DNA from: Warburgia ugandensis
Taxonomy: Eukaryota > Streptophyta > Magnoliopsida > Canellales > Canellaceae
Assembly (NCBI GenBank): GCA_035236585.1
Contig: CP141128.1
Location: 29,045,618-29,109,617 of the forward strand
DNA length: 64,000 bases
Direction: 5' to 3'
The notes under the pieces are model-generated. The model worked only from the letters and a program-made list of their open reading frames with translations, was not told where the DNA came from and did not search any database. Positions 3,713 through 36,583 of the stretch are shown piece by piece (positions within the stretch are counted from its first letter, which is position 1; each line of letters opens with the position of its first letter). A program made the position numbers and the translations under genes.

Positions 3713-3945
3713 ATCACTTAAGTGGGATACTTTTAATGTCATTTGATGTAAATGACTTTAAAAGTGGGGTACTTTTAAAGTCGCTTATAGCCAACGACTT
3801 TAAAAGTGATGCACTTTTAAAGTCCTTTGTTGTAAGCAACTTTAAAAGTATCTCACTTTTAAACTCATTTGCATCAAACGACTTTAAAGTTACCCCCCTT
3901 TGAAAGTCATTTATTGTAAGTGACTTTAAAAGTTGTGGGCTCTTA
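3713..3945. repeat. Palindromic minisatellite, unit about 42 bp
   Basis: About five to six diverged units alternate GACTTTAAAAGT, a spacer of about 5 bp, ACTTTTAAAGTC, and a longer spacer such as CTTTGTTGTAAGCAA. Each unit is itself an inverted repeat, so both strands look alike. Both strands are open: a 70-codon plus frame and an 81-codon minus frame each show repeating DFKS and LLKSF motifs. I treat these open frames as products of the repeat and not as genes. Confidence 0.85.
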
Positions 3946-4121: not shown

Positions 4122-5457
4122 TGTGACAACCCAGGTTTCTGAAACACATTTTACAATAAATTTTTCAACGGCAAGGGTGTCCCCTTAGTAAAAAAATTTC
4201 GTAAAACAAAACAAGGGAAATTATTTTTTTTAAAAAACTTGTTTTGAAAACCCTAGTCACCACATCATACATAACATAAGTACAATTTATGTACAAAATA
4301 AAATTCCATTGAAGGAATATAATTTTATTAAACTTCCAAATCCATTCAGTGGTTCATAGTATAGCCCGGTATCAATACAATACCTATCCAAATTACATAA
4401 TCCAAAATTTTCAAACCTCACCATACATTAAAAACTCCTAATACAATACAATTCCTTCAAATAAAATAAATGTCCTCAAGAGGATGTATCTTGATTCATT
4501 ATTTATCCACATCTTCTTAAGTCTTTTACAGTCTTGAGCTTCTAACCTCCTCTGTATCTGAGGTATTGTAAAAATAGAAACATTTACAATACCTCAACAA
4601 GCAATGCTTGGTAGGGGATACAAAAATATACTACTTCATCAATATAAGAATACATACCTCAGTTTTTATTCCATCATGGCTATCCATTCATGAGTATTCT
4701 CCATATAAAGTATATACATTATTTATGTAGTACATGACAAATTAGTTAATGTAGTGAAGATTGCTCAAAACTTGTTCCTCCCCCTGGCTATACTTCCACT
4801 TAGGAAATCAGTATCCAACCAATCTTTATATGGGGATTTCTAGGAACTCATGTATTGGCATCTCATCATGCCATGGCATTACATTATGCCTATCATATGT
4901 GCATCATAATGCAAAATACATTAGGACTACTATGCATCAGTCTCAATCCGTACAGTGAGCCCGGATGACTGCAATCCTCCACTAATACCAACTGTGGAAT
5001 ATCAACTCCATGTCCTCATGGGGTGGACCATGGTTGTCATAGTGGGGCCTTCCCATTATTGCCCAACCTGACGTTTAGCCTCTCTTTAAGCATGGTATCC
5101 AACATATAAATTTCAAGAAGCGGGCAGCCAAATCCTCATAACTTCCCTAGCATAGCATCCCCAGTCTCTATCTTTGTGTAAAACAAAATCATAAGCCTCC
5201 ATACTTGTATGGAAAATACATTGTACATATCAGACGATGTGTTTGTTTAACTAAGGATGGAATATTTTACATACCCTATTCTTCAGGTTTCCTTAGTCTT
5301 CATATCTCATTACTTTCACCTTATTAGACTTGATCATTAGATTAGATCAATTGGATTAGATTGTGAGGTTGGATCACTCAGTTTGATCATTTGTTTAGAT
5401 CACTTAGTTGGATCACATGTGTTGGATCACTTAGTTAGATCATATGTTTTGGATCAT
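4122..5457 (-). mobile_element. M1: truncated M-family LTR, 3'-terminal part
   Basis: The plus strand starts tgtgacaacccagg, the reverse complement of an LTR 3' end, and follows the start of solo LTR M2 (11462 to about 12750) closely. Shared landmarks include the ccattcagtggttca word, the stem-loop near 4559, and a GATCACTTAGTTGGATCA-type tandem tract near 5330-5450. Similarity stops near 5457, roughly 1.3 kb into a 4.8-kb LTR. No matching 5-bp duplication is visible, because the other end is lost. Confidence 0.8.
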
Positions 5458-5478
5458 GTCTATGCTTGTCTAAAATGT

Positions 5479-5839
5479 TTCTGAGCAAAATTTTCCACAT
5501 ACAAAAAAACCAACACCCTTCATGGGGAGATCATAGACTTCCATCAAAGTGCATAGAAAGGTGGAATAAATTGCCACAGATGGCAACAATTTCAATACTT
5601 TTATTGGACACTTACACCTCAAAATAGATGGATGATTGATGTCCTTATGGAGGGGCCCTCATGATGAAAAATGAGATGGAGGCATGGGAATCTTTCAAGA
5701 CATTAGCTGAGAATTCCCAGCAATGGGACTATGCAAATAAGAAAGAGAGACAATCCCATCCTCAAAAGAGAGAAGGCCTTTATGAAATAGAAGTGACCAT
5801 AGATATGTCTTATATGATTCACACTTTGGAGGCACGTAT
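5479..5839 (+). pseudogene. Element A (Athila-like) gag, part 1
   Basis: The plus strand reads like the conserved core of Athila-type gag. A KTNTLHGEIIDF block (about 5515) is followed by NRWMIDVLMEGP near 5620-5655 and by AWESFKTLAENSQQW with ETEALE-like spacing to 5839. Two internal stops are present. The amino-terminal part of gag is missing: the sequence joins directly to LTR fragment M1. The reading continues in frame at 28948 once element P is removed, and the zinc knuckle lies there. The product would package RNA in cytoplasmic particles, but this copy is dead. Confidence 0.75.
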
Positions 5840-8617
5840 TGTAACAACCCTATATTTTATCATGGTTTAAATCGAAAAGGCAATGAAGAACTAAATTTCA
5901 TTAAAAATCAAGATCTTAGAAGTAAACATACAAAATAATTTGAATTTGACTTTGAAACCTTAAAAATTAGAATATATGCAACAAGAGCTTTCCAACGACA
6001 TTAATTTTGCACAAAACAAAGCTCAGAAATAGAAAAACCCTAAAATTTTACTAAATATTGGAGGGGGCCAAATTGATAATGGCATCCCCTCTCCACTGAT
6101 GGGCCCACGTGATGCCCAACTAGGGGGAGCTCGACGTGTGGACTCTACCCTTGGGCACTTGTCAAGCAGGGAAGAGGCCAGTGGAGCTCATCACCTCCTG
6201 TTCCTGATTTCTCTTCACCCCTCTCTCTCCCTCATTCTCTCCCTCATCATGTTTTTCCATCTCTACCTATTGCATCTCTCCTTATCTCTCTCTCAATGTC
6301 TCTTACTAGGTATCCATTTTCTATAATAGTTGGAGCCAGTTTTTCCATCACTTGCAATTGTCACCAACACATGTAAGAGTTCCACTGCACCCAGTTATCT
6401 CCTTCTTTGTTCCATCTCCCTCTCTCACTTTATCTCTCTCCCCATCATTTCCACCCATTGTTGGAAACAACAGAAAAACCAACTTAGGTTTTCCTTGTTT
6501 TTCCCTTTATTTGACACTAAAAGGGGACAAAATCACTCTAGATTTTAACAGAGTTTAGGTAAAAATGAGATCTACAAAACCCATGTTTTAATTTCCTAGA
6601 AAAATGACATTTTCAACATTGTAACATTCAATAGTGGCGACTATTTTCGAGTCATCTTCTCTCGTGATGGTGGCTAAATTTTGGTGTTGCTGACCATTTT
6701 TTGTGAAGAATAAACTGGAAAATTTTATATGGTTGAAATGCTTGTGGAATGAATTGCACATATATGACAACGAAAGTTCAATTGGAAATCATTTGACCAT
6801 TGAATTTTTTTATCTAAACGCGATGCACAAATAGTGCTAAATTTACGAATCTGGCCATTGGAAATGTGGTCAGATAGTAGATCTAGAAATCTAATGATGT
6901 GAATTGCATGTTAAAGACAATTTGGGTTAGAAACATGAGTGAATATCTTATTAAATGTACTAAAGCCAAACAGACTATTAAATTGTAGATTTGATAACTC
7001 CAGTGCTTAGATTTATGTAATTTAGACCTAAAACATCAAAATTGACTAATTGGTGTTTCAAATTGACTTTCCCAACACCCAAAGATATATGATATGAGGT
7101 TAAATGTTAGATTAGGGACAATCTATCCGTTCAAATTAGAATTTTAATGTATAAATCCATGATCAAGAGACTAAATTATGATATTTATTTCATATTTCTT
7201 AGATCACTATTTGATTGATCATAGAAGCTGTCATGTGTGACTTATGATTGTCGATCAACATCCAAATTGACCCATAATTGATTTTACTAAATCTGAGCCA
7301 TTAGATTGAGATGGGTAAATACTATTATTGCAAAGTTTTCACATATATATGTTGTACTTATGCATTGTTTTGTTAAAAACATGTAATTACTGTACTTAAA
7401 TTGTAGTTGACAAAATATTTTGAGGTTGTAAGTATATCGTTTTTATAACTAAAATTATGTGATGACCCTTATATTAAGTGTGAATGAGATTGTTAGGAGA
7501 TAGTCTTCATTTTTATTTAAACACAAAAAAATGACTATCAGGTTAATTGCATCACATGTGCTAAATGTGCATCATCCTATAAATAGGGAAAGTCTTTCAA
7601 TTTTTCTACAAAAATAATAGGATTTGATGATTAGACTTGAAATGGTAAGGTGTATAGCATGAGTTGATTTCTAACTAAATTTTGTGCATTATTTATATTT
7701 GACATCTCATTCACATTTAAATGAATTTTTTTTAAACCATGATTAGGATCTAATTATGTGATTAATGGGTGAGTAATATGTTGTTGAGAGTACAATTGTA
7801 CCTAGATTTTTCATGTATTGATTTGCCAAGGATATGTTTTAAAATAGGTACTTTTGCCTAGTGAACATTAAGGTAGGAGGGTTATAGGGATGGCCACCCA
7901 CCTTCCAAAAGTTGATATTTCGACACCAAGCCCAAGTTCCTAGATTACGAGTGTGGGACATGGGAAGGCTACACTACATGATCTGTTCTCGTCTCATGTG
8001 AGATGGTGACAAGTCTCATACAGAGCATGCGTTAATTATTTTGGCACAAGTTAATTATTTTGGCACCAGGCACATCATAGGGTCATAAATAGGCTAGACA
8101 ATAAGCATGACGATGCCTTGGATAATTTAAGATTTGATATTTTTATATCTATGATCTTAGTTTTACTTGCTAAGTATATTCCCCTATACTCAAGCCACCA
8201 ACTCCACATATAAACACAAAGAAAAGAGGCAAGAGTGTTGATGCCAGGAACTCCGAATAGTCAAGGAGAGTATAGACATTGTATGTATGATTTATACACT
8301 ATAAATGTTGTGAGATGATTAGTAGTTATGTAACTATGATAAATAGTTTAGACATGTATAAATATATTTAATGCATATCAAACTATTGGCTGTAACTAGA
8401 TAGAATTATAGGAAATGATAAGTTTTAAGTTGTCATATTTGAATATAAAAATGTTTGATTTCAGAACTCATGAATGTGTTATGAGTGGTCAGATGACACT
8501 AGGGTTTTTTTGAAAGTCTTTTCAATGAAAAATGTCTCTGCTATTTGTTTTCTAATTTTTTTTTTTTTTTAAATAGGGATCCTGCATTCCAAAATAATTC
8601 TTAAAAGGCATTTGAAA
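5840..8617 (+). repeat. P 5' LTR, main segment
   Basis: This aligns by eye with 25842 to about 28925. Shared landmarks include CACTGATGGGC-type text near 6095, a pyrimidine tract near 6220 and a TATAAATAG box at 7578-7586 (27575-27583 in the 3' copy), suggesting where transcription starts. The last 17 bp of this LTR lie at 21183-21199, beyond the nested stack. Positions 8613-8617 (tgaaa) are the target-site copy for L1. Confidence 0.85.
7578..7586 (+). promoter_or_regulatory. TATA box of P 5' LTR
   Basis: TATAAATAG is followed by GGGAAAG. The same box occurs at the matching place in the 3' LTR (27575-27583). It is a likely U3 promoter and was not tested. Confidence 0.6.
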
Positions 8618-9710
8618 TGTACCAACCCCAAATTTAGTAAATACTATTCTGGGTGTTATTATGTAAAATTAGAATTTTGGAATATATATTGGAATTTTGA
8701 CTCAGGGAAAATAAATTTTTATATAGAAATGGAATTTTGAGTGAAAACATGAATTTTTGGAAGGTACTCAAAAAATTTAGTCCAACGACATAAAGAACAC
8801 TGAAATTGGATTTTGGATGAATTTCATCACAAAATTTCACTATTCTATGATCAGGTTATGAGTTTTCAAGGGAGCCAAATTGATATTGCCACCCCCCTCA
8901 CATTGCCAACCTAACGAAATGTCAAGTCTGCTCTCTCTCTCTCTCTCTCATCTCTCCCATCTCCCTAACTAGCCACCGGCGACCTACCTATTTCCTCGGC
9001 GTACTCACTACATCAGTGCCCTAACTGTCCTCTCTCTCTCTTGGTTGGGTTTAGACCGATGGTGACAAAGGTCATCGGCCACACCTCTTCCTTCGTTCTT
9101 CTCTCTCCGACGTAGCCTGATCCTGTCGACCACATAGAAACCATTTCCAGCAACCCATGACTGGCAACTACAAATTGTCGTTTCTAGGGTGAGAGGCAAT
9201 GAGTTCATTGGTAAATCTAAGAGAGAGAGCATAGGAGTTTCTTTCATCTCTCCCTATACTTCTCTTAGGGTTTTGTTTTCCTATAAAAACTCTTGCTTTC
9301 TCCATAGCCCTGGGGTTTTATCTCCCATCTACATCTTTCCCTTCTTTTGCAGGAAGTATTTAAGAGATCAAAGCTCGGATCATTGTCAGTGTAACACACA
9401 AATCCCCTCTCTACTAGAATATTCCCTACTCCAATGGCAGTAGGAAAACCGCAAAATCAAAAACCTCCCCACCTTGTTCCTTTCCTCTTGAGCATTGCCT
9501 AAACCGGCCACTTGCAATAGCAACCGGTGAGCCTGACATGATCGATTGAGCCTAGCTCACTGGCACCCCATATGCACCTTTCCGCCCTTTGATCAAGCTG
9601 GAATGCAAACCTATTCCAAAATCCTTCTCTTGTTTCCTGTTGTCCCCTCTGTTTCTCTCTCTGATTGGACAATAGGCAATGACCATGATAGAGCTACCGA
9701 TAACCACTGT

Positions 9711-10128
9711 CTTCTACCCCAAAGTGCAGAGTTTCCTGACGATGTTATCACATCCTGTCTCACAATGCCAATAAAAATGGCATTAGGATGTTTTAGCACT
9801 CATTCATTACTTCGTGATTCCCTTGACCCTGTTCTTATAGACAAAATTCCTGGGCATCAAAATGACTGAAAAACTCTTCTTGGAGAGCTGAACTGGATCT
9901 TCATAGCAGTGATTGATACAATTATCTGGAATGTTCTTCCACATGATTTGTTTTAGAGGTTATTCAAGCAGGATCTATTGGTTGCTAGTTTGTTCCGAAA
10001 TTTCTTACTTGCTGAGTAGATTATGTGAGCTATTAATTGTTCTCCAATTTCATTTCCAGGGCTTCAACTCATCAGCACCATATGTGGGATCCCTGGGATA
10101 TGGCTACTGAAGTCTACCTTTCTCAGCT
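9711..10128 (+). pseudogene. Captured RAPTOR (TOR complex 1 scaffold) fragment
   Basis: The plus strand reads, with one small indel, as an internal block of plant RAPTOR, the substrate-recruiting subunit of the TOR kinase complex. Visible motifs in order are [34 protein letters not shown]-like text, TLLGELNWIFIAVIDTI, WNVLPHDLF, QDLLVASLFRNFLLAE and [13 protein letters not shown]. About 140 codons run with no intron, which suggests capture from a spliced transcript. Stops replace family residues after QND, DLF and LLAE. The plus orientation is the LTR sense. It is fused in frame to an ATP synthase beta piece at about 10129. Identification is from recalled family sequence and is strong, given the length and number of motifs. 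Confidence 0.92.
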
Positions 10129-10366
10129 CATGTTATTCATTGACAACATTTTTTGCTTCACCCAAGCAAATTCTAAAGTGTCTACTTTGCTTGGTCGTAT
10201 CCCATCTGCTGTTGGTTACCAACCAAATTTGGCTATTGATCTTGGAGGCTTGCAAGAATGTATTACCACCACAAAGAAAGGTTCCATTACCTCAATCTAG
10301 GCTATTTATGTGCCTACTGATGACTTGATAGATCCAACTCCTATAACCACCTTTGCCCATCTAGAT
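10129..10366 (+). pseudogene. Captured mitochondrial ATP synthase beta-subunit fragment
   Basis: The reading matches the nucleotide-binding domain of the F1 beta subunit, in the nuclear-encoded mitochondrial form: [45 protein letters not shown] and then PTTFAHLD-like text. FTQANS, DLGGLQ and TTTKKGS are the mitochondrial type; the chloroplast protein has different residues there. Two arginines are replaced by cysteine (FCF, QEC), and SVQ has become SI-stop, all explicable as C-to-T changes. The fragment covers about 78 residues of a protein of about 500 and has no intron. It continues the RAPTOR frame at 10037-10300 without a stop, giving an 87-codon chimeric open frame. Confidence 0.95.
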
Positions 10367-10485
10367 GGCAGTGACATTCATGCCGAAATTAGTTCCCCAA
10401 TGAAAATCTTACCATTCTTGGAAATAGAAAATGACATGCATTGTGAGAACCCTCCACTGATGTCTATGAAATCTTCAGACATATA
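10367..10485 (+). pseudogene. Unassigned captured segment between ATP synthase and NIPA pieces
   Basis: It continues the same frame as the ATP synthase piece for about 38 codons (SDIHAEISSPMKILPFLEIE and following) before a stop near 10486. Codon-like composition and position suggest another captured coding piece, but I do not recognise the family. Confidence 0.4.
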
Positions 10486-10668
10486 TTAGTTTACTTGGGC
10501 ATCTGTTCTTTGACGGATTCACTAACAATTATCAACATAAAGGCCATCAGTATTGCAATAAAGCTTGCAATAGAGGGAATAAGGCAAGTTGCTTATACTA
10601 AAACATGTTTAGTTCTTTTTGTTGCTATAGCAATTGTGTGCATTCTAACTCAATTGAATTACCTGAAT
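10486..10668 (+). pseudogene. Captured NIPA-type magnesium transporter fragment
   Basis: An open stretch encodes LVYLGICSLTDSLTIINIKA, then IAIKLAIEG and, after a hydrophobic segment, CILTQLNYLN. This matches two adjacent membrane segments of plant NIPA/DUF803 transporters (GICSLMGSL...VKA, ...TQLNYLNKALD). About 60 residues remain of a protein of 300-350 residues. The reading then runs into unrelated residues up to a stop at 10716, just before the L2 target site. It has the same sense as the upstream captured pieces and no intron. Confidence 0.85.
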
Positions 10669-11461
10669 AATATTGAAGCGCATGGTCGATCATGGAAAAG
10701 TGACAATTACAGCTAGTGGTGTGACACCCCAGGTTTTTCACAAAAAAATTTCTCATTTATTTTCAAAAGGTGGCATGCCTCTAATTTTAAAATTCAAAAA
10801 TAGCGGAAGATAGTTTTCTTTGAAATTCATTTTTCCAAAACCCTAGGTATCACTTCAACTCCCATACTATACATTATATAGTTTTTATAAAAGATACATA
10901 TACATTTTATGAAACATCCAATACTCATCCAGTGGTTCACATGCACATCCCCTATAATCATTATATTAAATGTCCAAGCAACATAATCCAAATCACTAAC
11001 TACACAATATAAAACTTTAAGAAAACATATACCTGAGCACGGAAGTATAGCTGTTGATCTCCTCTTACTTGTGTATGTTTTCTCCTATCTGTAAGTATCT
11101 GAGATATTATAAACATGAAACATTTACAATATCTCAGCAAGCTATGCTTGGTAGGGCTGATTTAAGAAAACATGTTAGTTATATATGCATTAAGCATTTT
11201 GCATCAATTGGAATATTCAATTATCTGCAAGCCATTGATAAAGTAGCCCTTTATAATTCGTTTTCATCATATGAATATAAAAATACTTCTTTAGAGATTA
11301 CACTTTACATAATATATATAATCCACTGGTATTTTAAATATTTATCATTATCATTTTCCATATGATACCATACTTTGCATAATAAATCTAGCCATTTATA
11401 TCCCCATAGCAAAACTTTTATAAAACTATGCCCTCCAGATACATACATTCAGGACTATATC

Positions 11462-14400
11462 TGTGACGACCTGGGTTTTTTTCTTTTGAAACACATTTTA
11501 TAATACATTTTTCAATGGCAAGGGCATCCCTTAATAAAAGAATTTCTCAAAACAAAATAGTAAAAATTCTTTTCTTTTAATACTTGTTTTGAAAACCCAA
11601 GTCACCACTTCATACGTAACATAAGTACAATTTATGTACAAAATAAAATTCTATTGAAGGAATGTAATTTTATTGAACTTCTAGAATCCATCTAGTGGTT
11701 CACAGTACAGCCCGGTATCAGTACAATACCTGTCCAAATTACATAATCCAACATTTGCAAACCTCACCATACATTAAAGACTCTTAATCCAAAACATTTC
11801 CCTCAAATAAAATAAATGTCTTCAAGAGGATGTATCTTGATTGATTATTTATCCACATCTTCTTAAGTCTTCTACAGGCTTGAGCTTCTAACCCTCCTTT
11901 GTATCTGAGGTATTGTAAACATAGAAACATTTACATTACCTTAGCAAGCTATGCTTGGTAGGGGATACAAAAACATACTACTTCATCAATATAAGAATAC
12001 ATACCTCAGTCTTTATTTCATCATGGTTATCCATTCGTGAGTATTCTCCACATAGAGTATATACATTATTTATGTAGTATGTGACAAATTAGTTAATATA
12101 GTGAATATTGCTCAAAACTTGTTCCTTCCCTTGACTATACTTCCACTTAGGAAATCAGTATCCAGCGAATCTTTATAGGGGATTTCCAGGAACTCATGTA
12201 TTGGAATCTCATCATGCCATGGCATTACATTATGCCTATCATATGTGCATCATAATGCAAAATGCATTAGGATTACTATGCACTAGTCTCAATCCATATA
12301 GCACACCTGGATGACTGCAATCCTCAACTGACACCCACTGTGGAATATCAACTCCATGTCGTCATGGGGTGGACTATGGCTATCACAGTGGGGCCTTCCC
12401 ATTATTGCCCCACCCTACGTTTAACCTCTCTTTGAGTATGGTATCCATCATATAAATTTCAGGAAGCGGGTGGCCAAGTCCTCATAACTTCCCTAACATA
12501 GCATCCCTAGTCTCTATCTCTGTGTAAAACAAAATCACAAGCCTCCATACTTGTATGGAAAATACATTGTACATATTAGACGATGTGTCTGTTTAACTAA
12601 GGCTGGAATATTTTATATACCCTATTAGATTATCAGGTTGGATCACTTAGTTTGATCATTTGGTTAGATCACTTAGTTGGATCATATATTTTGGTTCACT
12701 TAGTTGGATCATATGTTTTGGATCGCTTACTTGGATCATATGTTTTGGATCATGACTAGGGTAAGGTACTAAGCATAATTATATCATGAAGGTCTATAAT
12801 TCTAGACAAAAAATGATGTATGTATACACATGAGTCTCTAATACATCTTTGTATATCCACCTACCTCAAAGTAGTATCTTGATTCATACTTCTCAAGTGT
12901 ATTCTTCCACAATGTCCATCATGGTCTGGATTCATCCATCTATCAAACCATACGTATAAGGTTATTTCTATATTCAAGTATGTATTCCTATAAGGGATAC
13001 CCCAATCTTTCCTTGAATCATCTTTGATCAAGGGTTTGGATTCTCTATCTATGTTCTTCTATATACCCATACATAATTTCTACATATACATATGTAGTAC
13101 AATACTACATTAGTATTCTTATTGTTTTCGATCAAACAAGAACATTCAAGATCCTATGGATCTTGTTTGATCATCCTTATCTTGATTACAATTTTTATTA
13201 GGATTAGATGATTTACTACATGTTATGCTCTTATTATTATTACTCAACCAATTAATGTTTTATTGGTTGAGGGTAGCTTATTTCATCCTAAGTCTAGAAG
13301 CTCCTCTTATGTCAAATTAGTTAAGGCTTACTAGTTGAATGGTTGAACACAAAATGGTTACTTCAATCCTCATGTAAGGAGGCATTTAGACCTCACAAAC
13401 ATCAACGGAAGGTGGGGGAAGAGCGAGCCTCTATTAGAGAACCCCCTTAACCATTATGTCCATCATCCACTAGAATGACCTTAGCTCAACCTTTCATAAG
13501 GTTCCTACGAGCATTTAATCCTAAGTACTCTTTCTAATTGATTTTAATTAAATCCAGGAACTAAAATGTCATTCATGGAGTTTTATTATGCTCTTAATTT
13601 GGACCAAGGAATTTATTCCTTATATTATCCTACTAACTATGGTCCTTACTATCATTAAGTCCTTATCAGACATTCAATGTAAATGTCCTTCCATTCTAAT
13701 TTCATTTAATTACAATTTCAATGAAATTTTCATTACTTAAGCATTAAAGCATAAACAGAAAGCATAAAAAGCATAAACACTTATCATGATCCAACGGTCT
13801 TACTTGATCCTTATTCATTTTTCCTCTTTTTATGGTTTAGATCTTGATCCTTCATTTTATTTTAGATCCAACATTTATTATTGATATAATTTCATTGTTA
13901 AATCACTAATGTATCCCATCCCTTGATTTGATCTTCCTTGATCTACCCGATTAAGGAGATCTTAAGTTACTTTATCCCATTTAAGAGCATAGATCTTGAT
14001 CTAGCCCAAATCCTCATCATCCATTCCATAAATTCATATAATATTAACTTATTATATTCATAAAAACTCATTTATATTGTAAAATTATCGTTGATCAACT
14101 TGATCAAGGAGATTTCCCTTGATTTTTATAGATTTCATGACTTTTAAGGCTAGATCTATCAAGATATGCATATTAAATTACATATAACCCACTTATTTAT
14201 CTTATTATCTTATTATATCATCATCTAACTAGTTTTGAATGATCTGATCATCCTAGATCTTGTAGATCAAGGATGTTAGTATACTTATCCACCAATTTAC
14301 AGAAAATTTAATGAATTAAAATTACAATTTTATTGGTTCAGTACATTATAATTATCATAAGGAATCCATCAAAACTTTCTAATCTCAATTTGGAATTCAA

Positions 14401-16261
14401 TTGAGATCAGAATTGAGGTTTAAAACTTTCAGCCTGTTTTAAGGGCTAAATTTCACTCTTACTGTTGTTCATTATTTGATTAATCTATAAACAACAAATT
14501 TCTACCATGATCATATTTATTAAGGTTTTGGAACCTTCTGAACACATCCACTAGTTCAGATTTTCAGTTTGGGGTCATATGGGCCATGATCCAAGATCAA
14601 TGGCACAAATTTTACTAAATAAAACATGTAAATAGAATTTAAAACCCATATACAACAAGTTCAATGGATTCTAGAAGATACAAGGAATCCATATCAGGTT
14701 TTAGATCTAAAATCAAAGCCGTATCAGGCACTAAATTAAAGATTTATGTCTTCAGTTCAAAACTGAACCGCTCGGATCAAATCTGGGTTTACGGGTGCAG
14801 GGACAATCATCAGCGCTCCCTTGTTACCATCTACTTCAGGTTATAGGGTGGAGGTGACCGGCTATGGGCGAGCCGTCTAGATCTAGACCGTTGGATCACC
14901 CATGGCTAGATCTCCTCCATCCATTAAAATCAAATGCCCAGATTTCATATCCTGGGGTTTTGGGCCCCAGGAGTCCATCCAACGGCTCAGAAGTTAATCT
15001 AAGCTATGGATTGATGGGATCTCAACCATCCAAGCCGGATCTATCGTCTTCAATGGATCAACAATAGGGAGATACCATTCATGCTAGAAAACCCAAAATA
15101 CTAGTCGAAATTAAAAGAGGGGAGTGATAGTGGCCTACCTTAGCTGGTCTGGGGAGGAGGAGCTCACCAGAGAAAAAGAAAAATGGCAGAGAAATAAGAA
15201 ACCCTAGCTTTGCTAGAAATACATATAGTCTGTAAGATCTCCATTCATCAGCTAGATTTGCTAGAATTTTGTGAAGAAACTGCTAGAGATGGTAAATATT
15301 ACTGGGTTGGATTTTTTTTTTATTTTTTCGGTGATCCAGGAGGTGGATCATATGGAACCAAAGAGATTTGTAGATCACCCTTTTCCAAACATATCTAATG
15401 GTGGAGATTGTGTTTCAACGGCTGTATTTTGATGCCTAATTGAAATAGGGTTTCCAGGTGGAAACCTAGTCTCATCGGGGATGACGCGCCCTATGGTTCC
15501 ACTAAGTCTGGAGCGCCTAGTGCGTCTGTGGACACACACACAGAGTTTAAGAGAGGAGAACAAAAATAAAAAGGAATTGGGTAAGTTCGGAGCTATTTCT
15601 AGAGCTGGGATTTTAGACCATACTAGGGGACCTCGTGAAGAACATTAGGAGAAATTTTGGAATTTTTATGAGCTATTTATAGAGGTGTTTTGAATTTTCC
15701 ATGATTATTTGAAATAATTACTTTGATTTCTTTTGATTATTTAATTGTCTTAGGATTCTCACTACCAGCTCCTTCTCCACTAGCAGGTGGTAGTAGTTTC
15801 ACTAATGATGGGCTGTTTTCTAGAAGTTGGATCCCTTTGTGGATCCCTTATGAGCCCCGCGGATGTGTGAAAAGAATAATTGCCCCTTTATAGAGAAAAA
15901 CCTGTTTTATTCTCCTGGGCACGGAATTGAGTGTACTTAGTGGTGTTGGATTCGTATTTCTGAGTACATTCTAGATTTTGATGTCTGAAGTCTTGGTTAT
16001 TTTTAAAATTATCATTTTTCCCTTTTATTCATGAAAATGAAGAAAAATACAGATTTTTTTATTTGTATTCAGAAATTGTCATGCTTACAGTCATTTTGAA
16101 GGGTTCGTTGAATATGTCTTCAATTAAATATGTCTCATACCATGATTACACTTCTATGAGAAATTCATTTTTCATAACCCTAATATTCCAGCTTGATTTT
16201 CATTGAAATTCTCAATTTCAATTTTTATTTAATTTCCTTACCAAAAATTAGGGGTGTTACA
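11462..16261 (-). mobile_element. M2: complete 4.8-kb solo LTR
   Basis: On the minus strand it starts TGTAACACCCCTAATTTTTG at 16261 and ends CCCAGGTCGTCACA at 11462. Exact atatc copies flank it at 11457-11461 and 16262-16266. The inverted copy M3 (39957-44945) matches it along its length, including the gaggcatttagacctcacaa word (13379-13400 here). A TATAAATAG box reads on the minus strand at 15673-15681. No gag, pol or primer site is inside. Short open frames at 14664-15563 match nothing I know. Confidence 0.87.
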
Positions 16262-17310
16262 ATATCATATATATAGAAATAGTTAAAAGCCATACAAAGT
16301 TCTGAACATAGTCCATGGGGTTTGTAACTTCCATTCCCAGACTATACTGGGTCTCATACATATACCCCTTACTATACAGGGTTCATAAAACTCCAATCAT
16401 TGTTGGGAAAACAATATAAGGCATATCATCATGCCATATCAATAAGGCCTCTCATAGTGTCATCATATACACATGTTTCATGGGCAGAGTGCATAGCAGA
16501 TACAATAGGTCTCTTTGGGTCCTCATATCTACCTCGCTAGTGTCTTTTGGCAACCCTCAAGGATATGCACCATAGTGCATCAAATATAAGAACTATTATG
16601 CCACAGTCTTAATCTGTACAACACGCCCGGATAACTGTATAATAATCCACTAATACCAATTGTAAAAATAACAAAACTCATGTCCGCATGAGAGGGACCA
16701 TGGCTGTCACAGTGGGCGCTTTCCCATGAATGCCCCACCCGACATTTAGCCTCTCATCAGGCATGGTATCATCATATAATAAATCTCAAAGCACGGGTGG
16801 CCAAACCCTACACTCTCCTAGCATAGTATCCTCAGGCCTATGCCTGTCTAAATCAAAACTCTCAGGCATCGTGCCTGAATGTAAAATAATAATACACAGG
16901 CATCTTGCCTGTCCATAATATATATATATATATATGAATATTTCACCATAATCTTAACATCCTCACTTATTAGGTGACCGTCCACCAAGGATGTAATGTA
17001 AAATCCTAGACTCATATATCACATATAATGCAATGGTACCCATGTACCATAAACATCTTTTATCACAATAATCGTTATGATATTTTTAAGAATAGATCAT
17101 GTGTATCCAATCATGTCACAAGTATGTATCAATTATAAGCATGTCATTCATATAACATTTCAAGTTACCAATCTTTATCATTCACAAGTAATCATTCTCA
17201 TAATCACATATGTATGAAATGTACAATTTGAATAACATAATGTTTATCATAAGCAATAAGATCATGTTTAAAACATGAATCTTAATATTAAGACATGCTT
17301 TCTTAATTCT

Positions 17311-17321
17311 CCACCTACCTC
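17311..17321 (-). promoter_or_regulatory. Donor-like motif GAGGTAGGTGG in L2
   Basis: The minus strand reads GAGGTAGGTGG, a good plant 5' splice-site match (AG|GTAGGT), just after the captured GTE piece. L1 has the same motif at 19392-19402, M3 a CAGGTAGGTG at 40886-40895, E2 at 30757-30768 and 37787-37796, and E3 at 54742-54752 and 62743-62753. Confidence 0.5.
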
Positions 17322-17373
17322 ATGTGGCAAGTTCATCCATTGTCCTCTAGTTGATCGACAACATTCGCGGTCT

Positions 17374-17649
17374 CTAAGATCCATGTTTTTCTCCTTGAGC
17401 CAGTGATGAGGAAGACACATTCTTCTCATCTTGTTTGCTTTCTTTTGGTGCCTCAATAACAATTGTAACTATGTTCGATGCTTGCAAATTCTGCCCAGTT
17501 TCACCTCTAGCTTGAATTGGAAGCTCGGCCTTCCTCTTGTTCTTGCTCAAACTTTTCTTGTAATTGGTCATGAACCTATCAAGCTCCCACAATGTCTTAG
17601 CATCAAAGCTATTAATGTCCACCTCAATCTCATCATCGTGCTGACTAAG
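17374..17649 (-). pseudogene. Captured GTE (bromodomain/ET) transcription factor fragment
   Basis: An open minus-strand stretch of about 92 codons encodes the end of the ET (NET) domain of plant GTE proteins: LSQHDDEIEVDINSFD, then TLWELDRFMTNYKKSLSKNK and RKAEL. The linker that follows in GTE4-like proteins is also present (EAPKESKQDEKNVSSSS). The bromodomain itself is absent. A stop after QGEKHGS ends the reading. No intron is visible. The sense is that of L2, and the gaggtaggtgg motif lies about 55 bp downstream. GTE proteins bind acetylated chromatin; this piece alone would not. Confidence 0.9.
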
Positions 17650-18900
17650 GTACAATCCTATGGAACACTTTTCTATTGTACTTTTCCTATTTCCGTATCA
17701 TATAAGTAAGGGGCTTGCTCTATGCTCTTCATCACTTCTTACAAATGTCTACCTTCATATATCAAGAATCCAATCTCCATGTCTGCTACTTTGGTGGGAG
17801 ATTATAGCTCATCATATGTAGGAAATGCTAGCACTCAATCATCTTAGATACATATCCCACCAATAAGGAGATTTTTCTTGTTTAATGGGTATCGATTATT
17901 TCCTTGAGTGCTTCATCTTAACAAAACATATAGTACCAGTAATGCTTTCTTCAACCATAGTATGTTTTTACCCTTCTTTTTTTCACCTTTCCCATTGCCA
18001 TATCCTATAAGTACTAACCTTTCTTTCTGCTCTTTATTTCACTCCTAACTAATGTGTGCCTTCTCATTACTAGAATCGAATTTGCAGACCTAGAACAACA
18101 TAATAAGCATCACCACAATAAAACTTTACCATTTAACAATGAGGCCAAGGCTCATTCATGTAAAATGGATAGGAAAAACATATATAATTTTCTTCATGAA
18201 CTAAATATGGTTTACTGATCTTACAAGAATCAACAGGCAGAACTTGACATATTTCAAAACTTTCATTCAAGCCCATTATCAAAATGGAAAGCGTTCTCTC
18301 TACTTGCCAATCCAACAACGACAACACTCCAATTTTCTTCGACCGTTATCCAGAAATCTCTTCCATCACTGAAACCCTCTCACCATCTCTTTATGCTTCC
18401 TCCTCAGTTCTACTTTCAATTCCTTAGTTGCCTATTACCTTGCCCTTTGTTTTAATCACTGCTACAACTTCATGATTTCCCATGTTACGGGAATCATGAT
18501 CCTACATCCATGGCCACCTCTGTCCAACCTGCCTATAAGACCTCGGCCCCAGCTAGCGAGATCTTTTTCTTGACTTTTCCATGAGCCAATGCTGATGCTA
18601 CTACATGCCATACACGTATTATAATCTCGATCATTCATTTGCATCAAGATCCATAGATCTAAAATTGGGTGCTAGTGGTCTACAGCCCTAGTTTGGTCAT
18701 CGCTTCGGGATTCTTGGAACAAAACCCAATAGAGGAAAACCAAGGGATAGGGAATGGTAGATTTGTGATAGTCGTCGTACCTGTAGAAACCTGAATGGGG
18801 AAGAAAAGAATGGGGAAAGAGGAGGCTATGTGCATGGGGAGGTTGGAGAAGGTTTTCTATGTTTGAGAATAGATCATATGATCTGTTTTTGGAAAACCAC
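17650..18900 (-). other. L2 middle region, possible further captured sequence
   Basis: This part of L2 has no counterpart that I can see in L1. It includes a 65-codon minus-strand open frame at 18133-18327 (WQVERTLSILIMGLNESFEI and on) and a 61-codon one at 18462-18647. I do not recognise either. Given the GTE piece next door, they may be untranslated or coding parts of captured transcripts. Confidence 0.35.
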
Positions 18901-21182
18901 AAAGGAAGGGGATTTGGGATTGCCGAATTCTACATGTTTCTGACACCCCCCTTGTTTTCTCTATTCGGCTCATGGCAAGAGGTGGGGAAGAAAGGGAGAG
19001 AGAGAGAGAGAGAGAAACCCTCCATGTCGTCGGGTTTGCATTCTGAGGGAGGTGCCAATATCAATTTGGCCCCATCTTGGTAAGTTGTGTGTTTAGTGTT
19101 TTTTTTAATCTTTTAATTACCTTATTGCCCCTCACTTCAAAGGCCCATAACTTCTTCATACAGACTCTGTTTTCAGAGCTCTTTGGCTCGCTGGATTCTA
19201 TTTTCAGAGTACTATCTAATGGTTTTAGTTTTAGTTCTAAATTATACCTCTATAACATGATATACCACTTGAAAACTCATAACCGAATCAGAAAATAGTA
19301 AAATTTTGGGGTGAAATTCATCTATAATCTGATTTCACATATTAATGCCCAAAATAGTATCTACAAAATTTGAGGTTGTTACAAGTGGCACGAGGTAGGT
19401 GGAAATTTAAGGCAGGATGTCTAAATAATAAGATGCATGTTCTAAACCTGATCTTATTTCTGATTATAGATGTTATGAAACTAAAATGATGAAATAATGT
19501 TGATTAAAGGAATTGCATGTTATAATTGATGCTTATGACTTGTATATCATGTATATGAATTGTGAAATTATGTTTATGGTACATGAGTACCATGTTAGTA
19601 TTGATGATGTATGAGTCTAGGTTTATAGGATACATCCTTGGTGGTTATCACGAAATAAGGAGGATCTTATGCTTATGATGAGATATTCATATATATTATG
19701 GATAGGCAAGATGCTTGTATATTAGTATTTTACATACAAGTATGGTGGCTTGTGATTTTGTTTTCCATAGCCCTAAGACTAGAGATGCTATGCTAGAGAA
19801 GTTATGAGGGTTTGACCACCCACTTCGTAAAATTTATATGATGGATACCATGCCCAATGAGAGGCTAAAGGTCAAGTGGGGCAATCATGGGAAGGCTGCC
19901 ACTGTGAAAGCCATGGTCCCCCCCATGCAAACATGGATTTTGTTATTTTCACAGTTGGTATCAGTGGATTATTATGCAGTTATCTGAGTGCGTTGTACAA
20001 ATTTAGATTGTGGCATAACAGTCCTTGTGTATTTTGCATTATTATGCACATATGATAGGCATAGTACTTTGCCATGGCTGATGAGATGCCTTATATGATG
20101 ATGGCAATATGAGATGCCTTATGTGATATGGCACGATGACATGCCTTATATTGATTTACCAGTAATGGCTAGAGAATTGTAGACCCCATATAATGGGGGG
20201 CATGGGGATTATATTGATATACAAGCAGAGGCTGGATAATTATGAACACCACATGATGAGGGCTATGATTCTGAAACCCAATATAGTTTGGGAATGTAAA
20301 TTAGATGATATTGATTATATTCATAAATTTGTATGTCTTTTAACAATTTCCATACATGTGTACACATGTTATATGTATATGATTGAGGGCGTAGTTTCAT
20401 ATAAGTTTCATATGGGTGTATGAATGGGTAGAACTGTTGTGCAGAGTATGGTTCATGGAATTGGATTCGTTTATTTAGATAATAAATAATAATTAAAGAT
20501 GTTTGATAAATAAATAGATTACTTATATTTATGAAACATGTATATACATGAATAATTATGAGACATGTTAATAATTGATTTATCAATGGATTGTTAATTA
20601 TTATGAATCATGTAGATATAGTTTATAAATGGATTATTGAAATGTGAAACATATAATAAATCCAAGTCAATATAATTGTTATGAAAATGAATATTCTAAT
20701 TACTATGGAATAATTAATGTATCTTAAGATTAAATGCTTCTTAAACTCCCCTACCAAGCATAGCTTGCTGAGATATTATAAATGCCTTATATTTACAATA
20801 TCTCAAATACAGATAGATAGGCGAAGATGTACACAAGAAGAGGAATTCAGCAACCATACTTCTACGCTTAGGTATACATTTTATTAAAGCTTTTGTATTG
20901 TGAAGTTAGTCAATTGAATTTTGATATTGGATATTTAATATAATATTATAGGGGCTGTACAAGTGAACCACTGGATGGGTCCTATTTTAAGAAAGGAATA
21001 TCTATCTTCTAGAAAAGCTATATATATATGTATAGTGTGAGTATAAAGGTGACATCCGAGTTTTTCAGAAAATGAATTTCAAATAACATGTTTTCTACTA
21101 TTTTTTAATTTCTAAAAATATTGGTGCACCACCTTTCCAAAATAAGAAAATTTTCATGAAAAACCTAGGGTGTCACATGAAA

Positions 21183-21199
21183 AATCCTAGTCGTCACAG
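21183..21199 (+). repeat. P 5' LTR, terminal segment
   Basis: The last 17 bp (ending GTCGTCACA) correspond to the end of the 3' LTR (GGTCATCACA). They are separated from the main LTR segment by the L1 stack. Confidence 0.8.
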
Positions 21200-25841: not shown

Positions 25842-28800
25842 TGTAACAACCCTATAATTTATCGTAGTTTAAATTGAAAGGAGAGTGAATAATCAAATGT
25901 TATTAAAAATCAAGATCTTAAAAGTAAACTTACAAAAGACTTCAAATTCTCTTTAAACCATAACAATCAAAATGTACTTGATGAGAGCTTTCCAACAACA
26001 CCAACATTGCATGAAACAGAGGTCGAAGATAGAAGAACCCAAAATTTTACTAAATATCACTAAATTTTACTAAATAATAACAACACCCCTACTCCACTAC
26101 TGGGCGCCACATGATGGCCAACTAGGAGGAGCTTGACAAGTGGATCTCTTCACCTAGCTGCTTATCCTTCAAGGAAGAGGCCAATGAAACTCACCACTTT
26201 CTCTTCCCTATTTCTCTTCTCTCTTCTCTCTTCTCTCTTCTCTCCTCTCTCCATCTTCATCCTCTGCATCTCTTCCTCTCTCCCTCACTAGGTATCCCTT
26301 TTTTGTAACAGTTGGTGTCAATTTTTCCATCATCAGATGACTATCATCGGCATAGTTATGAGTTCCAACTTGCCAGGCTATCTCCTTCTCCTTTCTCTCC
26401 CCTCTCTCACTCTATCTCTCTCACCATCATTTCCTCCCACCATCGGCAATGACAAAAAAAACAACTTAGGTTTCCATGGATTTTTCCCTTTTTTTGGCCA
26501 CTAAATGGTGTTGAAGTGGCCCTAGATTTTAGGAGAGTGAAGGGAAAAATGAGATCCACAAAACCCATGTTTCAATTTTCTAGAAAATTGACATTTTTAA
26601 CATTGTAACAATTTCTAGTGGAAACTATTTTTTGGTCATCTTCTTTGGTGATGGTGATTGAATTCTAGTGCCGACGACCTATTTTTGGCAGTGACAAAAT
26701 GAAAAAATTTATATGGATGGAACCCTCATGGAATGAATTACGCATCTATGTCAACAAAAGTTCAATTGAAGATCATCTGACCATTGAAAATTTTATTTAA
26801 ACACTAAGCACGAATAGTGCTAGATCTACATTTCTAATTATTGAAAACACTATTAGATAGCAGATCTATGAATCTAATGATGTGAATTGCATGTTAAAGA
26901 CAATTTGGGTTAGAAATAATAAGTGAAAAGCTTGTCAAATGTAGTAAAGCATATCGAATTGTTAAATTGTAGATTTGATCACTTTAGTTCTTAGATCTAT
27001 GTAATTTAGACTAAAACATAGATCTGATTGATTGATGTATGAAATTGACTTTCCCAATGCCCAAAGATATCTTATCTAAGGTTAAATGGAAGATTAGGGA
27101 CAATCTAATAGTTCAAATTAGAATTTTAATGTATAAATCCTTGATCAAGAGACTAAATTATGATATTTATTTCATATTTCTCAAATTAATGCTTGATTGA
27201 TGATAAAATCCATGATCTGTGATTTCTAATTCTTGATTGTCGTTCAACATCCAAATTGACCCATAATTGATTTTGATGAATCTAAGACATTAGATTGAGG
27301 TATGTAAATTCTAAGATTGCTAAGTCTTCACACATATATATATATATATTGCACTTATGCATTATTTTGTTAAATAGATATAGTTACTACACAAATTATA
27401 GTTGATGAAATATTTTGAGGTTGTAAGTATAGCATCTTTATAATTTAAATTATGGAATGAAACTTATATTAATTGTGAATGAGATTATTAGGAGATAGAG
27501 TCTTCATTTTTATTTAAACATGAAATAATGACATCCACGTGGATCACATTAAATGCATTAAATGTGCATTGTCTTATAAATAGGGGAAAATTTTTAAGTT
27601 TTTCTATAAAAATATTAGGATTTTATGATTATACTTGAAATGGTAAGGTGCATAGCATGAGCTGATTTTTAACTAAATTTTGTGCATTATTTATACTTTA
27701 TATCCCATTGGAATTTAAATGAAAAAAATTATATTTCCAAAACTGTGATCAAGATCTGACTATGTGATTAGTGGGCAACTACTGTGTTGTTGAGAGTACA
27801 TTTGTACCTAGATTTTTCAAGGATTTATTTTAAAACAAGAACCTTATCCTGGTGGACACTATGATAGGAGTGTTATAGGGATGGCCACCACACCTTTTGA
27901 AAGTTGATATTCCGACACCAAGCCCAAGTGGCTAGATTTCGAGTGTGACATCATGGGAAGGATACACTATGCAATTCGTTCTTATCCCATGCGAGATGGT
28001 GATAAGTCTCACGCAATTGGTGTTAGTGTTATGGCACGCGGCGTGCCACTAGAGAGTAGTTGTTACAACATAGTGATCCATATATTCTTTTTGCTACAAT
28101 GTCCCATGATTAGGCAGATGTTGTAGTGTTGCGATGTCCCATTGTAGGTTGCTTTTTTTGAAACCACGCTAATGATAGGGTCATAGATACCCTAGCCACT
28201 AGGCATGAGGATGCCTTAATTGATTTGAGAACTGATATTTTGAAATAAATTGACAAGGACTTTCCTATATGTAATTTAAATTGAGATTTTAGTGCTTACA
28301 CTTATATTATACTTAGCTGATCTGAAACCTTTGATGGAATGTTTGAAAATAATGCAAATGATATATTGCGAATTTATATTGATAAACCTTAGGTACCATA
28401 CCTAAGGATGTTTCATTGTGTGCATGAGTGTATGGATGCAAATTTACATTGATTTAAATCTATAATCTTAGGTTTACCTACTGAGTATATTCTCCTATAC
28501 TCACCTCATCACCTCCACAGATAAATGCAAAGAAGAGAAAGGTAAGAGTGTTGAGACTAGGTGCTTCAAATAGTTAGGGAGAGTATAGATAGTGTATATA
28601 TGATTTGTACATTTATAAATGTTATGAGATGATTGAGTAGTTATCTAACTCTGATAAATAGTTTAGACATGCATAAATATTTTTAATGTATATTGAACTA
28701 TGGCTATAAGTTGACTGAATTCTAGGAAATGAAAAGTTTTAACTTGTCATATTTGAATGTAAAAATGTTTGATTCAGAATTCATGAATGTGTTTTGAGCA

Positions 28801-28942
28801 ATCAGATGCACTTGGGCCTTCTTGAAAGTATTTTCAAAGAAAAATGTTTCTGATGTTTGTTTTTTAAAAGAAAATTTTAAAATAGGGATCCTGCCTTTAA
28901 AAAATATTCTTCAAAGGCATTTGAAAAATCTGGGTCATCACA
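25842..28942 (+). repeat. P 3' LTR
   Basis: This 3.1-kb LTR starts TGTAACAACCCTATAATTTA and ends GGTCATCACA. It includes a TATAAATAG box (27575-27583), a TTCTC-rich pyrimidine tract (26213-26260), an (AT)n run near 27336 and a stem-loop TGAGTATA-6-TATACTCA at 28482-28503. A segment at about 28020-28400 is absent from the 5' LTR. Confidence 0.88.
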
Positions 28943-29506: not shown

Positions 29507-32070
29507 TGTCACGACCCGAGTTTTGTATGATGCAATTTTGATAAAAAGGCGAGATCTCTTGTTTTATAAATATGAAATGCATGAAAATCTTTCTCATTTG
29601 GAAAACAACCTTTCATAAAAACCCCGAGTGTCCAAACACGTTCTCAATTTATTTAGCCATGGCAAAGTTTAAATCAATATTATTCCCAAGAAAGTGTTAG
29701 TCACAGCCCCAGCTATTAGAGAGTAACTACAATCAAGTAACATTGAAAGATAAGATAGGGGTTTACTTACTTGTACTTAGTCTGTGTCTCCCAGTACAAA
29801 CGTTCCTTGCCCTTAATTATTTACTTTGTATTTGGAAAATGTTGAGGATTGAGTGAGTATATACGATACTCAGTAGGAGCCTATCACTACTAGTTTTATA
29901 AATGCATGACATGTTTTAAAATCATATGCTCATTCAAAACATGTGTATGTTTGAATACTCGAGTTCAATATCAGTATAAGAATTCATGATCAAACTGAAA
30001 TACTCATGACTTAAAAGATCACATAATCCAAAATTGAAAGTATCATATAAATATATACATATAATAACATCATGATAAGCAATAGATGCTTCATGGAGTC
30101 CAACTCATGGATCTCTAGTATGGTATGGTCGACCAACCTCATATCATGCTATATGAAATGCACATAACTCATCAACCCATAGGGTCCACTATGCCCACGA
30201 GCTCCTCGCCATGTGGTCCTCGGGTACCTAAGGACACTCGGTCATAGCCTCCATGGGGCCTATGACACGTCGACCTAGTGCCGTGACACCAGTGGTAGCC
30301 CCCTGTACCACATGCAGTCGACGTAGGGACTTGCCTCTTTTGGGCATGGTACCCATCCACCTAATAGTGGTAGAGGCTGGGTGGCCAACCCAGACCCCTC
30401 GGCATAGCACCCACGGGCTTACTTGCCCAAATCACATAAGATTAAATAAGCCAAAACCTCTTGTTAAAACTTGTCCTCTTTGGGTCCCTCACAACTGCCT
30501 GGCCCTCGGCACTCCAGCGTCTTTTGGCAACGCTCAAGGACATGCAATCTTTGCAAGTACTTAAATCATGCAATGTATGCACTTGTTTGCAACATATATA
30601 TGTGCATCATGTATATGCAATTATTTCAAAACATGGCTGTGTACAAAGCATTTATCATGCATGCTGAACTAAGTCATGCAAATCAAGTCATATACTTAGA
30701 ACATATGTTCTCAAAATAAAAATAGTTCTTTTTAAAAGAATCTAATAGTGATAGAGCACCTACCTGGCTAGGTCGCGTTAACCCTTTTGTCCTCGTACGC
30801 TCCTGAACATGGTTTGGGTACTCAAGGTTAGTTTAGCCTATCTTTTATGGGTTTAGAGTAGTTGGGTCTTATTACTTAGGCATTAGGGGTCCATCCCTAT
30901 ACCTATGGGTGTCCTAAGGTCCTAATTGGGCCTTGGTATCCTCAGTTTCCCAAAGTTCTAGTGGCCATGCGCCACCATCCTATTCTAAGGTTCATGCCCT
31001 CCTTTGATTGGGCCTTGATTAGGGATTTTATCGTTTGGATGTGTCCGCGTCGTCGACACAGACACAATGCCTTTTGCGGCGCCTCAATCGGAGCTCTACA
31101 TCTCAAGTCATAAGCGTTTTAATGTCGTATGTACATAGAGTCTTAAAGACAAAAAAGACGGAATGCTAGGGCGCTACGTGTGCCCCAGCTTCCTTAAGTA
31201 ACCAAAAGTCGACGTTTTCCTAGCGCGCTGCGCGTCTGCAGACACGCGGTATGCTCCACCCGTATTTCTCTTTAGCCTGGACGCGCCCGTTTGGTTTTTC
31301 AAACAGAGACAACGTGGACCGTTCCGACTGGAAGGTTCCGTCGTCTGGGGGACCGGGGCGTCCTCAGGACACCCTGGTTCGACCCCTGTCGAGCCAGTGC
31401 GGCCCAGGGAACGTCCCTGGGTCCTTGGTGGCTCTCCTGGGCTCTGTTTTGCATGGTTTTTCATGCAAAAACTTAGGGAAATTGACCTTGAAACTATGGG
31501 GGAGATGGGTTTTGAGCGATCTCGGACGTACCTGGCTCGTTGCTGGATTTTTCTCCTCGTTTTCCCCTCTAGGTCACTGCTCCACAATGGGTTTTCTCCA
31601 AGGTTTTGGGCTGCCATTAGAGGCACCCAAGAGCTCTATTTATAAAGCTAAGAGAGGGTTCTGGAGGGGGCTCTCACCGCCTTTGAATGGCGGTGGAGAA
31701 ACCTCTAGAATGGCGGTGATTTCTCCTCAAATCACTGCCGTTCTAGAACCCTCTAGAGGTTGAAGACGACGGGGTGCCCGTATCAAAATGGGCCCCTGTG
31801 TTTTTTAGGTTAAGTCTTTTTTGTAAAATTTACAGTTTTGCCCCTGAACTTCAAAGGGCCATATCTTGCTCATTTTAACTCCGTTTTGGGTGATTTTAGT
31901 CTCGTTGGATTCCTTTTTCTGAGATGCATCTAATGGAACCAAATTTTGGACCAAATTTCTAGGTTCAGTCAAGGTGAATGGTGAAATGACTAAAATGCCC
32001 TTTTCTTTAAAAACTAAACTTTTCATTGCTAAACTTGGAATTTCAATATTACAAAATTGGAGTCATTACA
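29507..32070 (-). repeat. E2 3' LTR (left)
   Basis: On the minus strand it starts TGTAATGACTCC (32070) and ends CGGGTCGTGACA (29507). It includes TATAAATAG on the minus strand at 31636-31644, a CpG-rich tract at about 31030-31330, a donor-like CCAGGTAGGTGC at 30757-30768 and a stem-loop TGAGTAT-5-ATACTCA at 29854-29872. The 150- and 170-codon open frames at 31174-31763 lie on opposite strands over the same GC-rich tract and resemble no family. Confidence 0.93.
31636..31644 (-). promoter_or_regulatory. TATA box, E2 3' LTR
   Basis: TATAAATAG on the minus strand, followed by AGCTCTTGGGTGCC. The same box is at 38711-38719 in the 5' LTR, where it would drive the element. Confidence 0.65.
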
Positions 32071-32083
32071 TTCTTACCCCCTT
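32071..32083 (-). other. E2 polypurine tract
   Basis: The minus strand reads AAGGGGGTAAGAA directly before the TGTAATGACT start of the 3' LTR. Confidence 0.88.
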
Positions 32084-32119
32084 AGGGGAATTTTGCCCCC
32101 GAAATTCTACTATATACAA

Positions 32120-33949: not shown

Positions 33950-33967
33950 AAGTATGCAACCTAGCCC

Positions 33968-35216: not shown

Positions 35217-35228
35217 AATGGGGACATC

Positions 35229-36455: not shown

Positions 36456-36583
36456 CTATAAGCACAAGGCAATTCACCAAATCTCAGTTTTTGTGTTATC
36501 CTATTAACCCTTACTCTTTCATGGATGAAACTTGATTATAAGTTATTCTCCTCATAACTAGGCTGTGAGTAATGTTAAACCGT

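Follow-up and report, generated by a model that had tools for sequence, protein, structure and literature searches.

How pieces of plant nuclear genes come to lie side by side inside a long terminal repeat (LTR) is the question raised by a locus in the genome of Warburgia ugandensis, within a stretch of 64,000 nucleotides hereafter called the window (contig CP141128.1 of assembly GCA_035236585.1). Fragments of RAPTOR, mitochondrial ATP synthase beta and a NIPA magnesium transporter, ordered 5' to 3' and all in LTR sense (+), form a cargo that occupies the middle of the LTR L1 (9693-10671). The reading that we favor, at a probability of roughly 0.83, is that this cargo was built into the LTR by template switching to spliced host mRNAs during reverse transcription and was then spread. 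The parents and copies of the cargo were sought in the genome assembly from which the window is taken, of 1.12 Gb in 14 contigs.

Self-comparison of the window and searches for LTR ends place L1, a solo LTR on the + strand, at 8618-21177, limits longer than the first-pass annotation had implied, with TGAAA at either flank, which bears out its claim of exact 5-bp target duplications; the probability that two random 5-mers of the window agree is 0.0016. The termini are of the TG...CA form (TGTACC...TCACA in L1, with TCATA ending some other copies), and the sense of the LTR was fixed by three two-LTR elements in the window, which agree in their PBS sequence and resemble one another at the LTR ends. 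L1 belongs to a long-LTR, Ty3/gypsy-type family that is probably non-autonomous. L2 is inserted within L1, and L3 within L2 (Table 1); the 5' part of L2 is homologous to the first 332 bases of L1, while homology between the middles of L1 and L2 was considered and rejected, no match being found between them. L1 is itself inserted in an LTR, B1, at a point 21 bp short of its end, and since the sister LTR B2 reads GGCATTTGAAAAATC where B1 holds L1, the empty site of L1 is visible. A candidate TATA box lies in L1 at 9282, a position that is not constant among other copies. The old element B (5840-28942), whose LTRs are just 77% identical over 2.2 kb and whose flanks are CGTAT and CATAT, still keeps PBS-like and purine-tract sequences.

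Table 1. Coordinates of the L1 locus, its cargo and related features in the window
Feature	Position	Strand	Remarks
L1 solo LTR, 5' part including cargo	8618..10719	+	starts TGTACCAACCCC
L1 solo LTR, 3' part	19389..21177	+	ends CCTAGGGTGTCACA; collinear with L2 3' part
L1 target site duplication, left copy	8613..8617	+	TGAAA
L1 target site duplication, right copy	21178..21182	+	TGAAA
RAPTOR piece, spliced copy	9693..10135	+	one frameshift near 10064, four in-frame stops
Two shared bases holding the RAPTOR to ATP-beta switch	10136..10137	+	
Mitochondrial ATP synthase beta piece, spliced copy	10138..10367	+	one stop
109-nt cargo segment between ATP-beta and NIPA	10368..10476	+	common to other copies (8 shown)
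NIPA magnesium transporter piece	10477..10671	+	PF05653 E 2e-14; PDB NIPA2 E 3.6e-4
AGGTAGGTG motif where L1/L2 homology resumes after cargo	19393..19401	+	
L2, solo LTR nested in L1	10720..19383	-	duplication AGTGG
L3, LTR-like element nested in L2	11462..16261	-	duplication ATATC
GTE4 piece (NET domain) in L2, L2 sense	17380..17649	-	PF17035 E 1.3e-5
AGGTAGGTG motif in L2, 60 bases 3' of GTE4 piece	17312..17320	-	
LTR B1, host of L1	5840..8617, continues 21178-21198, then GTTGGTATCAGAGCC	+	
LTR B2, sister of B1	25842..28942	+	L1 site unfilled

All three identifications that had been proposed from the letters alone are backed by strong protein matches. The RAPTOR piece aligns with Arabidopsis RAPTOR1 (5wbi), residues 281-404, over 9693-10064 (E 3.8e-51) and with residues 406-428 over 10064-10132 (E 4.8e-07); the ATP synthase beta piece matches Pfam PF00006 (E 3.5e-17) and beta chains (best E 2.8e-37). 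The fragments had been described as lying head to tail in LTR sense; all three do have that sense, but NIPA begins 109 nt beyond ATP-beta. Likewise, the chimeric open frame reported at 10037-10300 does share one codon phase between RAPTOR and ATP-beta, but it starts with TTG, and its first in-frame ATG is at 10082. A protein search with the 87-aa chimeric frame returned 929 proteins; the ATP-beta domain is present in all of the 120 listed among these, and no RAPTOR part was found in the 35 proteins inspected among the 120 matches listed. Up to E 0.1, no Pfam domain was matched by the antisense frames of the first part of L1 and the larger part of L2, a protein search with the other frame of L2 gave no match, and nothing rose above the curated Pfam cut-offs in the sense frames of L3, F4, F44, B1 and B2 or of one LTR each of two other elements.

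The parent loci indicate how the pieces were acquired. At the parent RAPTOR locus on C14, three exons match window positions 9792-9945, 9945-10087 and 10086-10147 at 89-92% identity; gaps of about 905 and 77 bp lie between them, across both of which L1 is contiguous. A splice acceptor, CTTTTTCAG, stands immediately 5' of the first matching exon, which suggests a further closed intron; the part of the L1 RAPTOR piece upstream of that exon has no match within the 2.8 kb of this locus that was fetched. Arabidopsis RAPTOR1B is given 23 exons in an excerpt of PMC1131892. In the two ATP-beta loci, on C12 (92%) and C11 (90%), an intron (gtaagc...cag) lies at the FTQ/ANS codons, where it is closed in L1; the open reading frames P0134 and P0225 read through an intron at these codons. 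The RAPTOR and ATP-beta pieces were therefore copied from spliced RNA, with four intron positions closed, the first of them (in RAPTOR) judged from the splice acceptor, and the mapping of parental exon junctions that the first-pass annotation proposed as a check comes out in its favor.

The joint between the two pieces can be located almost to the base, the last diagnostic base of RAPTOR being 10135 and the first of ATP-beta 10138. Here the parents show imperfect microhomology (RAPTOR TTATTgATTGACgAC against ATP-beta TCTTcATTGACaAC), so that the joint lies in a short stretch of partial agreement of the kind that a template switch by reverse transcriptase would leave. The fusion is in phase because the parents share codons at the switch, and selection is not needed to account for it. 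In six copies, L024-L029, about 59 bp are missing at the joint between two CTGAAGT repeats (slightly more in L024), a loss that represents a second jump or slippage. A comparison of the joint with viral contigs gave no match; a phage contig with a single motif match was set aside as chance.

The joint is found again in LTRs elsewhere in the genome, a search that the first-pass annotation had proposed. A 264-base junction query gave 37 genome matches, of which 12, including L1, cover at least 256 bases; the fusion is thus not unique to L1, since 11 further places match at least 256 of the 264 bases across the joint. Twenty of the matching places were read and proved to be 18 cargo copies and 2 ATP-beta loci. 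Of the 18 copies, 14 allowed the 3' LTR end to be located, and eight allowed both ends. Five of these eight (L014, L016, L017, L019 and L020) have exact 5-bp duplications, in a search that allowed five end shifts and in which chance 5-mer pairs also arose at other starts; L025 has one mismatch, L015 has no duplication, and in L012 the LTR is followed by the PBS instead. Two of the 14 copies with a placed 3' end adjoin a PBS, the LTR running into GTTGGTATCAGAGCC in L012 and into a variant of it in L029. A second LTR was sought in the 8 kb beyond each of these two without any match to L1, and none of the 18 cargo copies could be shown to belong to a RAPTOR/ATP-beta element with two LTRs. The copies are about 10% apart pairwise (18 sequences, with L1 in and L024 out, form 153 pairs whose identity averages 0.898), and the pairwise identities show no split between the two junction classes, the pattern of a star-like burst. 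One copy retains part of Raptor_N, the RAPTOR N-terminal CASPase-like domain (L026:4289-4474), and since it keeps more of RAPTOR, the piece in L1 is a shortened version of a longer original capture. Beside the cargo copy in L016, further LTR remains of the L1 family occupy positions 1-757, with an LTR end at 757; a further AGGTAGGTG is found beside the copy in L014, at 1968.

A second capture, in L2, shows where such cargo resides in a complete element. The GTE4 piece (PF17035, 25.7 bits against a cut-off of 24.5) is 77% identical to a GTE4-like protein of Tasmannia lanceolata; in the best 120 of 593 protein matches, two T. lanceolata proteins come first, followed by Liquidambar, Aristolochia and Magnolia, a ranking that may point to a magnoliid as host. 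All four identified pieces, three in L1 and GTE4 in L2, are in LTR sense. The GTE4 piece has at least 40 genome matches including L2 (40 of 73 candidates were scored), and among these are three same-strand pairs spaced 6.6, 8.3 and 10.9 kb apart, the edges of which were read in two. Both are elements with two LTRs: one, on C6, is 9,931 bp long with GATAT at both flanks and LTRs 94.9% identical over 3,014 bp, and the other, on C8, is 12,243 bp long with ATAAA at both flanks and LTRs 90.8% identical over 3,946 bp. In each, the first LTR is followed by a PBS, the second is preceded by a purine tract, and both contain GTE4. No gag or pol domains were found in the internal edges read of the two elements, and the sole integrase match, in L037, falls outside the C6 element; both are probably non-autonomous. 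The claim that the cargo lies in the LTR itself is upheld by the both-ended copies with duplications, by the LTRs that abut a PBS and by the presence of GTE4 in both LTRs. The companion claim, that each copy carries its cargo twice, holds for GTE4 in the C6 and C8 elements; for the RAPTOR cargo, the observations consist of the two LTRs abutting a PBS, with no two-LTR element found. GTE4 is accordingly a case of LTR-internal, twice-carried cargo, and the same arrangement is strongly supported for L1. Immediately upstream of the GTE4 piece, at 17680-18081 on the minus strand, about 97 bp are duplicated in the middle of L2 (72% identical).

We infer that the cargo was captured within the LTR and not transferred into it later. 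A reverse transcriptase copying the LTR part of the element RNA would have switched to spliced host mRNAs, in the minus-strand order NIPA, the 10368-10476 segment, ATP synthase beta and RAPTOR, and would then have returned to the element RNA, so that the fusion became built into the LTR; LTR synthesis would have placed the cargo in both LTRs, transposition would have spread it, and mobilization would presumably have depended on an autonomous relative, for which the element at 29507-39145 is a candidate. Alternatively, a LINE could have made a chimeric retropseudogene by template jumps, which was inserted into an LTR that subsequently amplified it. Tripartite LINE-made fusions exist in the fungus Magnaporthe grisea (excerpt of PMC2104539), and spliced pieces are compatible with any reverse transcriptase. 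Such an insertion is recognized by a duplication of 7-20 bp and an A-tail at the cargo edges. Direct repeats of at least 7 bp are absent from the cargo edges of L1, L012 and L017, although old repeats could have decayed; the 3' edges of L012 and L017 lack an A-tail, the A-run being at most 3; and a second, different capture, that of GTE4, ends close to the same LTR motif. We therefore regard the LINE route as improbable. The two findings on which the first-pass annotation had staked its interpretation, strong protein matches and the failure to find a separate insertion with its own ends, both went its way.

A considerably less probable proposal is that the chimera encodes a functional fused protein under selection, for which the shared codon phase of RAPTOR and ATP-beta and the many cargo copies could be adduced. 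Differences between copies and parents were counted over three parent exons, for which 18, 19 and 8 copies of the 19 (with L1) were compared; they fall at codon positions 1:2:3 in the proportions 91:90:45, 78:75:58 and 37:42:21 per exon and 206:207:124 in total, without a third-position excess; 356 of the 537 differences are C>T or G>A, which would be expected for methylated, silent DNA. The observed/expected ratio of CpG is 0.20 in the cargo, 0.24 in the 3' part of L1 and 0.34 in the window. In L1, 16 of 85 RAPTOR sites conserved between distant eukaryotes are changed, as are 13 of 72 conserved ATP-beta sites (one of which, 10130, precedes the refined joint), and stops and a frameshift interrupt the frame. 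Judged by these substitution patterns, the cargo copies appear to be under no protein constraint, and attaching interest to the joint being in frame was thus too strong a claim, its phase following from the codons shared at the switch.

The possibility that the LTR limits were misread and that the cargo sits in the internal region, as in Bs1 and as holds for the soybean TRIM GmaRetroS15, the one published case covered for which the position is stated (excerpt of PMC4717578), has very little left to it, being contradicted by the cargo LTRs of L012 and L029 that abut a PBS, by the five copies with both termini and exact 5-bp duplications and by GTE4 in both long repeats of two elements with PBS and purine tract between them. 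A set of fragments that all face one way is typical of Helitrons, but a Helitron or other DNA transposon carrying the pieces within L1, to which their common orientation and a CTAG at 10713-10716 might point, is hardly credible, since the RAPTOR and ATP-beta pieces are spliced where captured genomic DNA with introns and its own termini would be looked for, folding of the 3' edge is no better than in shuffles (z 0.98), edge repeats are absent and the dispersed copies have LTR ends.

Within the template-switching reading, the edge at which the captured pieces end deserves attention. Compared with an expectation of 0.29, the window has 8 occurrences of the motif AGGTAGGTG, always in LTR sense: in L1, L2 and L3, in both LTRs of two full elements and in one further LTR-like copy; it is absent from B1, B2 and the truncated copy at 4122-5839. 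An exact AGGTAGGTG directly follows the cargo in 10 of the 18 genomic cargo copies, and three of the four GTE4 LTRs read have AGGTAGGT at the corresponding place. The likeness of L1 and L2 just upstream of the motif is marginal, being reached by 11 of 2000 shuffles. The motif resembles the consensus of a 5' splice site and might act as one. We tentatively suggest, with more doubt than confidence, that the LTR middle ending at AGGTAGGTG may be a recurrent slot, which related LTR families have independently filled with different host mRNAs, in transcript sense in the cases seen. The fillings seen are RAPTOR/ATP-beta/10368-10476 segment/NIPA and GTE4. A capture slot in the LTR would mean that each element carries the cargo twice, and if the suggestion is right, solo LTRs would leave the genome dotted with sense-oriented pieces of genes central to growth and energy, from which small RNAs directed against the parent genes could arise.

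Gene capture by LTR retrotransposons is already known; the available parts of the papers searched describe none within the LTR itself. The captured pieces of Bs1 of maize are said to lie between the LTRs; several host gene pieces without introns are present here too, for RAPTOR and ATP-beta, but the cargo is within the LTRs, and GTE4 in both. Bs1 is described as an LTR element in which transduced pieces of three host genes form a chimeric gene (excerpt of PMC13317346). The soybean TRIM GmaRetroS15 similarly contains exon-only fragments of three host genes, and TRIMs with cargo show 5-bp duplications and are mostly present in several copies, but the fragments of GmaRetroS15 are internal and the elements measure 1.2-1.4 kb (excerpt of PMC4717578), as compared with cargo LTRs of 3.3-4.2 kb and elements of 9.9 and 12.2 kb here. 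The 5-bp duplication of LTR retrotransposons is found at L1, L2, L3, five of the eight both-ended copies and the elements on C6 (GATAT) and C8 (ATAAA); two LTRs with PBS and polypurine tract are found in the C6 and C8 GTE4 elements, and an LTR with PBS alone in the RAPTOR family. In BARE-2 of barley, abnormal template switching also brought foreign sequence into the LTR, the piece being derived from the retrotransposon Wis-2 and not from host mRNAs (excerpt of PMC13317346). The M. grisea retropseudogenes likewise consist of several transcripts fused directly by template jumps, but they involve LINE machinery and 14-bp repeats and lie outside any LTR (excerpt of PMC2104539). Surveys count host genes in plant LTR retrotransposons without stating, in the excerpts covered, their placement in the LTR (PMC2774510, PMC3726574), and a maize survey, likewise in excerpt, records none in which a single element combines pieces of two or more standard nuclear genes (PMC2774510). 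The literature searched comprised the available parts of open-licence papers (PMC13317346, PMC2774510, PMC3726574, PMC7264820, PMC6317226, PMC12477314, PMC3414828, PMC8547701, PMC3281118, PMC4717578 and PMC2104539), in which no LTR with captured host genes was found. Capture in the LTR would link the event to the part of reverse transcription in which the LTR is templated, double the cargo per element and leave cargo in solo LTRs; screens limited to between-LTR regions or to full-length elements could miss it. A single assembly contains the parents, the joint and copies by the dozen, which makes template switching testable base by base.

The putative autonomous relative, on the minus strand at 29507-39145, is a Ty3/gypsy element with LTRs 90.6% identical, GGTTC at both ends, long open pieces of gag and pol, and matches to gag, protease, RT, RNase H and integrase in three open frames; a Chromo match below threshold (20.2 bits against a cut-off of 25.1) might hint at the integrase chromodomain that marks Tekay/Del chromoviruses. 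It shares with the cargo LTRs the PBS GTTGGTATCAGAGC, a related LTR 5' part, the AGGTAGGTG motif and a 5-bp duplication, and differs from them in that no Pfam match was obtained for the sense frames of its first LTR and that it carries gag, RT and integrase pieces. Its LTR middles (30232-31763 and 38289-38838) are G+C-rich, with overlapping open frames on both strands. Elsewhere in the window, direct and inverted self-repeats of about 80-200 bp overlap at 3720-3933. A hairpin motif, CAAGC-NNN-GCTTG, is conserved in LTR 3' parts at 20755, 11138, 11945, 4598 and 44467, where it might serve as an RNA signal; at 20755 and 44467 a second inverted repeat, seen by eye, adjoins it.
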